DNA from: Rhizobiales bacterium dw_265
GTDB lineage: Bacteria; Pseudomonadota; Alphaproteobacteria; Micropepsales; Micropepsaceae
Direction: 5' to 3'
Assembly (NCBI GenBank): GCA_018449595.1
Contig: JAAVUU010000003.1
Span: forward strand, 62,001 to 126,000
DNA length: 64,000 nucleotides
The translations under genes and the position numbers were made by a program. The notes under the pieces are model-generated. The model saw only the letters and a program-made list of their open reading frames with translations, made no database searches and had not been told where the DNA came from. How positions within the stretch are numbered: position 1 is the stretch's first letter; the number at the start of each line of letters is the position of its first letter. This document shows, in pieces, positions 38,503 to 43,492 of the stretch.

Positions 38503-38979
<477 letters not shown>

Positions 38980-39079
38980 GCGGAGAGATTGGCATGCGAT
39001 CCGTGACAGACGCTAGTGCCACCTGCCGCTCGCGGCGTTGGATGGTCTGGCCTCGATTTCTGCCAATAAATCCAAAATT

Positions 39080-39225
39080 TGTCATGGCCTGCAAATGCGG
39101 GCCACCCAGGTGACACCGGCAAAAATCCAGCAATTTGGTCGATATTCAATTCGGAAGCGGGGTGCTTTACGCCCAACTGGGTGGCCGTTCGCACGCTGTC
39201 GCTACGAACCCGGCGGGCCATGACA
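39080..39225. repeat. Long-form palindromic element, copy C, with a nested 23-nt hairpin
   Basis: Starts TGTCATGGCCTGC and ends GGGCCATGACA, in the reverse orientation relative to copies A, B and E. The middle matches copy D (GGTGACACCGGC..., CAATTTGGT, TTCGGAAGC, GCCCAACTGGGTGG). It is about 16 nt longer because a 23-nt hairpin (39187-39209, GTTCG...CGAAC) interrupts the right arm. It lies between two genes on the same strand. Confidence 0.8.
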
Positions 39226-39244
39226 ACAATGGACGGGTCGCAAC

Positions 39245-39709
39245 TCACCCCGCCATCCGGCCCTTATGGTCGCTGCGCCGCGCCTGCTGCGGCTGATAGG
39301 CCTTGCGGGCATGGGCCTCGCAATAGGGCGATCCCGCCTTGGGGCTGTGGCCGCAGAAGTGGAACTCGGTGGCGGCGGGATCGCCGATCGGCCAGCGGCA
39401 CATCCGGTCGCTGATGGTCAGCACGGTGGCATGGCTGCCGTCTTCCAGCTGCAGGGGATCTTCCTCCACCACTGGGGCAGCGGGAACATGGCTCCTCACG
39501 CTGGGCACCTTGGGCGCCATGGGCAGGCGCGGGCGTTCCGAGCGCGACGGGCTGGCGCGGCCCGCCAGGCCCAGCCGGTGCACCTTGCCGATCACGGCAT
39601 TGCGGGTGACGCCGCCCAGGGCGCGGGCGATCTGGCTGGCGGAAAGGCCCTCCGTCCATAATGTCTTGAGCTGTTCAACCCGGTCGTCGGACCAGTTCAT
39701 CGCTGTCAT
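39245..39709 (-). CDS. gcrA: Cell-cycle transcription regulator GcrA
   Basis: A 154-aa alphaproteobacterial regulator that works with sigma-70 at methylated GANTC promoters in S-phase. N-terminal domain text WSDDRVEQLKTLWTEGLSAS-QIARALGGVTRNAVIGKVHRLGL is diagnostic; the C-terminal part (CRWPIGDPAATEFHFCG and PYCEAHARKAY) carries the cysteine-rich sigma-contact domain. TAGGAG 8-9 nt before the ATG at 39709 fixes this start; an internal ATG at 39700 would give the shorter form seen in relatives. A GTTAACC...GGTTACC palindrome lies 30-45 nt upstream. Divergent from argD. Confidence 0.95.
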   Translation of the reverse strand: MTAMNWSDDRVEQLKTLWTEGLSASQIARALGGVTRNAVIGKVHRLGLAGRASPSRSERPRLPMAPKVPSVRSHVPAAPVVEEDPLQLEDGSHATVLTISDRMCRWPIGDPAATEFHFCGHSPKAGSPYCEAHARKAYQPQQARRSDHKGRMAG

Positions 39710-42103: not shown

Positions 42104-43030
42104 ATGCCTGACAAACTGGAACAGCCCGCGCCCTATGGCGACTTCGTCCTGCCGTTCGACATCGCCCAGGCGGGCGTGCGCGGGCGGCTGGTCCGGCTGG
42201 ATGCCGCCTCGGCCCGGGCGCTGGGCGCCCATGCCCTGCCGGAACCCGCCGCCCGGGTGGCGGGCGAGGTGGTGGCGCTGGGCGCGCTCTTGGGAACCGC
42301 GCTGAAGCTGGACGGGCGGCTGACCATCCAGACCAAGGGCGACGGCCCGCTGGACCTGGTGACCGCCGACTATTACGGCGCCGACGAGAACCGCCATCGC
42401 GGCGTGCGCGGCTATGCCCGGGTGGATGCCGAACGCTTCGGGGCGCTGGAGGGCCGGGAATTCGACAAGCTGGCGGGCAAGGGCGCGCTGGCCATCACCA
42501 TCGAGCCGCAGCGCGGCGGCAAGACCTACCAGGGCATTGTCGAACTGTCGCCCGACGGCATCGCCGCCAGCGCCGAGACCTATTTCGCCCAGTCCGAACA
42601 GTTGCCCACCGTGATCCGGCTGGCCGCCGCGCCGCTGTACCTGGCCGGGGAGAAGGAGCCGCACTGGCGCGCCGGCGGCATCATGCTGCAGATGACGCCC
42701 GATGCCGCCAGAGAGGGCGTCGAAAGCAAATCCGACGACTGGGAGCGGCTGTCGCTGCTGCTGAAGACGGTGGAAGACCTGGAACTGGTGGACACCACCC
42801 TGGCGCCGGAAACCCTGCTGTGGCGGCTGTTCCATGAAGACGAAGTGCGGGTGCAGCCGCCCGAGCCGGTGATCTTCCGCTGCGATTGCAATGCCGACCG
42901 CATCATCACGGTGTTGAAAAGCTACGCCCCGGAAGACCGCGCCGGCCTGGCCGATCCCGACGGCGTGATTAGAGCTAGGTGTGAATTCTGCGGGAAGACG
43001 CATGAAATTGGACCTGACAGTTTGGCGTAG
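42104..43030 (+). CDS. hslO: Redox-regulated chaperone Hsp33 with a codon-recoded C-terminal tail
   Basis: A 308-aa chaperone that traps unfolded proteins under oxidative stress; zinc release from four cysteines turns it on. The substrate domain (1 to about 230) and redox domain with C-x-C (FRCDCNADRI) and C-x-x-C (RCEFCGK) are present. From codon 288 (att at 42968) to the stop, codons switch abruptly to AT-rich rare forms (aga, agg, tgt, gga, cct, agt), unlike the rest of the gene. A second copy of the same tail with normal GC-rich codons lies downstream at 43119-43163 and overlaps the next ATG, as a native stop would. Length is near the usual. The current end probably came from an insertion. 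Confidence 0.9.
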   Translation: MPDKLEQPAPYGDFVLPFDIAQAGVRGRLVRLDAASARALGAHALPEPAARVAGEVVALGALLGTALKLDGRLTIQTKGDGPLDLVTADYYGADENRHRGVRGYARVDAERFGALEGREFDKLAGKGALAITIEPQRGGKTYQGIVELSPDGIAASAETYFAQSEQLPTVIRLAAAPLYLAGEKEPHWRAGGIMLQMTPDAAREGVESKSDDWERLSLLLKTVEDLELVDTTLAPETLLWRLFHEDEVRVQPPEPVIFRCDCNADRIITVLKSYAPEDRAGLADPDGVIRARCEFCGKTHEIGPDSLA

Positions 43031-43163
43031 GTTGCTGCGTTGCCGCTCGCTTTGGCTCGCGGCGTTCGGCGCTCAAATCGGTCCACTGGACCGATTTGCC
43101 CCTCCGGGTCGCGCCTCACTCTGCGGCAAGACCCATGAGATCGGGCCGGAGTCGCTGACATGA
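43031..43163 (+). other. Insertion remnant and orphan native hslO tail
   Basis: After the hslO stop, a GC-rich palindromic segment (about 43040-43062, GCCGC...GCGGC; then 43074-43096 with the perfect arms AAATCGGTCC/GGACCGATTT) is followed by a readable tail LCGKTHEIGPESLT and stop at 43161-43163. That tail differs from the current hslO end mainly at synonymous positions. The native stop TGA overlaps ATG at 43160. The two stops are 133 nt apart. Confidence 0.7.
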
Positions 43164-43360
43164 AAGCGGAGCGCGCCGTCGCGCATTTCGCCGCCCGCCG
43201 CATCGCGCCGCGCCTGCTGGGCCGCCTGGGCCTGCGGTTCCTGCCGGGCGGGCTGGTGGCGATGCTGCTGGCGGAAGGCCTGCTGCTGGCCTGGCGCGAG
43301 TTGCGCAAGCGGCCCGACCTCAGGAAGCGGTTGTTGGGCCAACTTGTGAGGTCTTTTTAA
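43160..43360 (+). CDS. Small basic hypothetical protein
   Basis: A 66-aa Arg/Leu-rich protein with one amphipathic or short transmembrane helix (LRFLPGGLVAMLLAEGLLLAW) and a basic tail RKRPDLRKRLLGQLVRSF. No family recognised. Its ATG overlaps the orphan native stop of hslO (ATGA), showing it was the third or fourth gene of the argD-argF-hslO operon before the insertion; it now starts 130 nt after the present hslO stop. Followed at once by repeat copy D. Confidence 0.55.
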   Translation: MKAERAVAHFAARRIAPRLLGRLGLRFLPGGLVAMLLAEGLLLAWRELRKRPDLRKRLLGQLVRSF

Positions 43361-43361
43361 T

Positions 43362-43491
43362 TGTCATGGCCCGCAAATGCGGGCCACCCAGGTGACACCG
43401 GCGCAAATCTAACAATTTGGTTCGATATTTGCTTCGGAAGCAGGGTGCTTCATGCCCAACTGGGTGGCCCGCTCTCCGGCGGGCCATGACA
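43362..43491. repeat. 130-bp palindromic intergenic element, copy D
   Basis: Intact long-form element with ends TGTCATGGCCCGC and GCGGGCCATGACA (left arm spacer AAAT), same orientation as copy C. Its length equals that of copy E exactly. It fills the gap between the convergent small-protein and argE genes. Confidence 0.85.
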
Positions 43492-43492
43492 T

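Follow-up and report, generated by a model that had tools for sequence, protein, structure and literature searches.

The last 20 codons of hslO, the gene of the chaperone Hsp33, have been replaced in Rhizobiales bacterium dw_265 by an imported and recoded copy that encodes nearly the same protein, and the original, native end of the gene lies 89 bases downstream, behind a copy of a dispersed palindromic repeat. We designate the imported end tail 1 and the stranded native end tail 2 (Table 1; the window is the whole stretch of 64,000 nucleotides that was analyzed). The locus is a clear natural example in which a gene has exchanged its end for a recoded version while the old one stays in place. 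It is probably (roughly 55%) the relic of an integrative element of the e14/icd type, which targets gene 3' ends and which would have supplied the recoded tail before being deleted.

Table 1. Features of the hslO 3' region, in window coordinates.
Feature	Coordinates	Strand	Description and basis
hslO	42104-43030	+	308 aa; Pfam HSP33 (E 7e-61); chaperone Hsp33
hslO body, codons 1-288	42104-42967	+	Host codon usage, GC3 0.89; Pfam HSP33, codon profile
Tail 1	42968-43030	+	20 recoded codons and TAG; includes the last Hsp33 CxxC pair
Spacer GTTGCTGCGTT	43031-43041		11 nt from the tail-1 stop to the repeat; sequence
Dispersed palindromic repeat, complete copy (GTGAGGCGCG...GGTCCAGTGGACC...GAACGCCGCGAGC...GAGCGGC)	43042-43119	-	Alignment with other copies
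Central palindrome CAAATCGGTCCACTGGACCGATTTG	43074-43098		Sequence
Open 53-codon frame	43002-43163	+	Begins inside tail 1, spans the insert and enters the native tail-2 frame without a stop; translation
Tail 2, stranded native hslO 3' end (TCTGCGGCAAG...ACATGA)	43120-43163	+	Truncated on the left; junction without insert in relative G059, low synonymous divergence
66-aa ORF	43160-43360	+	ATGA overlap with the tail-2 stop; ortholog directly 3' of hslO in G059

The codon usage along hslO, a profile that the first-pass annotation had proposed to plot, breaks sharply at codon 289 (ATT, 42968), where GC3 falls from 0.89 in codons 1-288 to 0.45 over the final 20 (ATT AGA GCT AGG TGT ... TTG GCG). 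The abrupt switch to rare codons described in that annotation is therefore real, with its position corrected from codon 288, and the recoded stretch does take in the last cysteine pair of Hsp33, as had been read. Given its amino acids, tail 1 has a codon likelihood that was not attained once when host usage was simulated 200,000 times. Among the hslO genes of 70 family members, tail 1 is the strongest codon-usage outlier, with z = -6.2 when the tails are anchored on the CxxC motif and referred to codon usage pooled from the hslO genes of 69 relatives. The tail ranked second has a z of -3.15, and among 15,047 body windows of hslO there is no value as extreme as that of tail 1. Natural variation of hslO tails was considered as an explanation and rejected: 6 relatives are mildly odd over their last 20 codons, and with motif anchoring the window alone is outlying.

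Two minor observations concern the tails of relatives. The last 20 hslO codons of L229 (G006), L230 (G023), and L211 (G039) are AT-rich or oddly coded, an oddity that lies mostly in C-terminal extensions, because it is much weaker when the tails are anchored on the CxxC motif. The hslO tail of G025 (L021/L048) shares with tail 1 the rare arginine codons AGA and AGG, both in matching positions, and is otherwise host-like, which is perhaps due to chance or to an exchanged tail that has since ameliorated.

The protein encoded by tail 1 is the standard version for the clade, with a mean of 1.8 amino-acid differences to the relatives, compared with 2.7 among the relatives themselves. Over the full 20 codons, 72% of the same-amino-acid codons of tail 1 carry synonymous changes, compared with 42% among the relatives. 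Tail 2 was described at first reading as a second, host-like copy of the same protein text 133 nt further on, and this description is accurate: the distance from the TGC of tail 1 (42989) to the TGC of tail 2 (43122) is 133 nt, and the codon usage of tail 2 is ordinary under the host-usage simulations. The 2 tails overlap in 13 codons with 11 shared amino acids, 8 of which are spelled differently, in agreement with the estimate of about eight synonymous codons. Over the same 13 codons, the synonymous divergence from relatives is 25% of the shared-amino-acid codons for tail 2 and 67% for tail 1.

Alignment of hslO 3' ends and the following small ORF, as the first-pass annotation had suggested, revealed the ancestral junction in the relative G059 (L012/L041). 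In this genome, hslO runs uninterrupted to a tail ending in GGGCCGGAGTCGCTGGCATGA, without the insert, and the stop (TGA) shares bases with the ATG of a small ORF, a homolog of the 66-aa ORF of the window; tail 2 ends in the same way. Therefore, tail 2 is the native end and tail 1 came later, and the overlap of the second stop with the next ATG is an original operon junction, as had been surmised. Neither a second tail nor the same insert was found at the other family hslO loci examined; a second tail downstream of hslO occurs at none of 82 loci, some of which are one genome counted twice. Tail 2 is little decayed although it now lies outside hslO, which argues that the divergence of tail 1 is older than the exchange. 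Judged from these sequence comparisons, tail 1 probably diverged under selection at the protein level before its arrival, and the arrival would be recent, tail 2 having barely decayed. Two tandem tails in the same orientation could also result from duplication in place, with the front copy then diverging, but here the front copy is far diverged and the non-coding back copy is not, which is the reverse of in-place decay and makes such an origin extremely unlikely. An assembly chimera, for its part, is highly unlikely: it would need a donor hslO seen nowhere and a precise in-frame join, and the genome is assembled in 21 contigs with 98.6% completeness and 0.39% contamination.

The stop of tail 1 is separated from tail 2 by 89 nt, made up of the 11-nt spacer and a complete minus-orientation copy of the repeat, which abuts tail 2 exactly and has the architecture of its family (GTGAG..GGTCCAGTGGACC..GAACGCCGCGAGC..GAGCGGC). 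The central palindrome, reported at first as a perfect 10-bp stem, has 12-bp arms (CAAATCGGTCCA-C-TGGACCGATTTG). Members of the repeat family are present in 25 of 96 family genomes, every one in this genus, and 5 pattern copies are present in this genome. The 86 copies listed from these 25 genomes (L084-L168) have a unit of about 90 nt with the GGTCCAGTGGACC core. All eight pairs of the central hairpin are kept in 84-85 of 85 copies, and the outer four pairs, which show compensatory changes, are alone informative because the copies were chosen by the exact GTCCASTGGAC core. A search of Rfam gave sub-threshold matches only (Brucella CI153, 21 bits), the family being unnamed there, and nothing was found in the literature on the palindrome sequence. 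The proposal that the palindrome is an excision scar is thus not supported, as it belongs to a whole copy of a genus-wide repeat, and no duplicated tail accompanies the other copies.

The repeat might itself be mobile and carry gene tails along, given that it is dispersed, that the window copy adjoins tail 2 exactly, and that in 43 of 85 copies its 5' border lies at the stop codon of an upstream ORF of 100 codons or more, compared with 4-11 of ~82 control segments. However, no duplicated gene tail flanks the other copies tested, where the only higher-scoring pairs were low-complexity or a DNA repeat, and no gene facing (convergent with) another copy has a GC3 drop near -0.40. Because no duplicated or comparably recoded tail occurs at the other copies, the repeat alone cannot account for the swap, and tail carriage by the repeat, largely refuted by these tests, is very unlikely. 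Equally long odds apply to the idea of a minimal gene-free mobile unit of ~150 bp, made up of the tail plus the palindromic repeat, which would dock at the hslO end with a recoded rescue tail and use a recombinase supplied in trans.

The integrative element that we prefer as the source of tail 1 would have targeted the hslO 3' end and integrated in the conserved block around codons 280-288 (GCCGATCCCGACGGCGTGAT). The copy of the last 20 codons that it carried would have kept the Hsp33 protein intact, the codons of this copy having long diverged with the protein sequence held by selection, and the native tail would have been displaced downstream. A later deletion would have removed the interior, together with the far junction and some 20 nt of the native tail, with a copy of a resident palindromic repeat now filling the gap. 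An integrative element with its own tail explains why the codon switch is abrupt and the tail recoded, why the protein is preserved, and why the native tail lies displaced. It requires several steps, because nearly all of the insert is a repeat that belongs to the chromosomes of the genus.

Because donor, integrase, and att core were all not found, we infer the mechanism, and with it the element, a recombinase, and the later deletion. Neither an integrase nor any other element gene nor an att core lies in the 89-nt insert, which contains only the spacer and the dispersed repeat, and an att core identical at both ends is absent, as tail 2 starts with TCTGCGG and has no left crossover block. The search for a donor of tail 1 did not extend to metagenome contigs, the likeliest place for one. 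No donor was found in the genome itself; DNA searches of the family genomes returned ordinary hslO genes and chance matches only; plasmids and phages held neither a donor nor an intact element with tail 1; viral contigs including IMG/VR gave 17 and 6 pattern matches, none of them an Hsp33 tail; and no hslO among the 69 relatives has the same tail and flank. The first-pass annotation had attributed the recoded tail to a mobile or recombined segment. Of this, a native tail 2, a tail 1 imported already recoded, and a pattern that fits 3'-end integration are borne out; element, integrase, att core, and donor did not turn up. Among the observations that it had named in advance as counting against the idea are a donor element that is never found, which so far speaks against it, and relatives with the AT-rich tail but no insert, none of which was found, so that the idea survives this second test.

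The main rival is one-sided (homology-facilitated illegitimate) import from an unsampled relative, in which the hslO tail, its 3' UTR, and the palindromic repeat arrived together by homologous recombination within hslO on the left and a short-homology join on the right. A single event would be enough, which is simpler in steps than an integrative element; the insert is a chromosomal repeat of the genus type, and the strongly conserved block before codon 289 offers homology for the crossover. However, no sampled relative of the 69 has a tail nearly so recoded, the repeat is absent from the 180 nt after hslO in 29 genus genomes, and the crossover would have had to hit the edge of the recoded stretch exactly, by chance. 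We regard such an import as possible but rather unlikely.

hslO was also considered as an integration hotspot, and this was rejected: no genome with 2 Hsp33 tails was found in the family, order, or class samples, the order-level sample being the same genomes as the family sample. A double tail occurs in none of the 105 genomes with a motif match among 385 alphaproteobacterial genomes; therefore, hslO is no known hotspot, and the papers searched do not report it among such integration sites. The host genome has 11 Phage_integrase matches, by coordinates none inside the window; tRNA genes are present at 2 of 7 host integrase loci checked, and no tie to hslO was found.

As far as the account of prophage e14 in PMC6379469 (citing Hill et al. 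1989) goes, the element supplies an alternative 3' end to Escherichia coli icd, leaving the native 3' piece downstream and the protein nearly unchanged. At hslO we likewise find an alternative 3' end, diverged in DNA but conserved in protein, and downstream of it, in unchanged orientation, the displaced native end. By contrast, no element or recombinase survives at hslO, the target is a different gene, and most synonymous positions of the 20-codon tail are changed. The att test would likewise be negative for a relic without its far end; therefore, we say that the locus works like the e14/icd type, its membership being unproven.

Genomic islands and ICEs that target gene 3' ends (guaA, prfC, and mnmE types) bring a tail that restores the host gene. 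The restoration is alike, but no att repeat or integrase was found at hslO. In tail-carrying homing elements of fungal mitochondrial genes (e.g., Allomyces atp6), a recoded end serves to protect or restore the targeted gene; the hslO case shares the recoded gene end but lies on a bacterial chromosome and has no endonuclease gene. The repeat in the insert is, like REP/BIME and RIME-type palindromes, a short dispersed palindrome often located right after a gene; its family differs in having no Rfam name (sub-threshold matches only) and is found near stop codons. If an integrative element was indeed the source of tail 1, hslO joins the genes used as docking sites, and an abrupt codon switch accompanied by an orphan native tail would be a genome-wide signature of lost integrative elements.

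The open 53-codon frame could sustain translational coupling to the 66-aa ORF, or may be a chance feature of the sequence. Further downstream, between the 66-aa ORF and argE (43345-43492), there are inverted copies of another repeat (GTCATGGCCCGC..GCGGGCCACCC / GGGTGGCCCGC..GCGGGCCATGACA), and text resembling it also occurs near 38900-39250.
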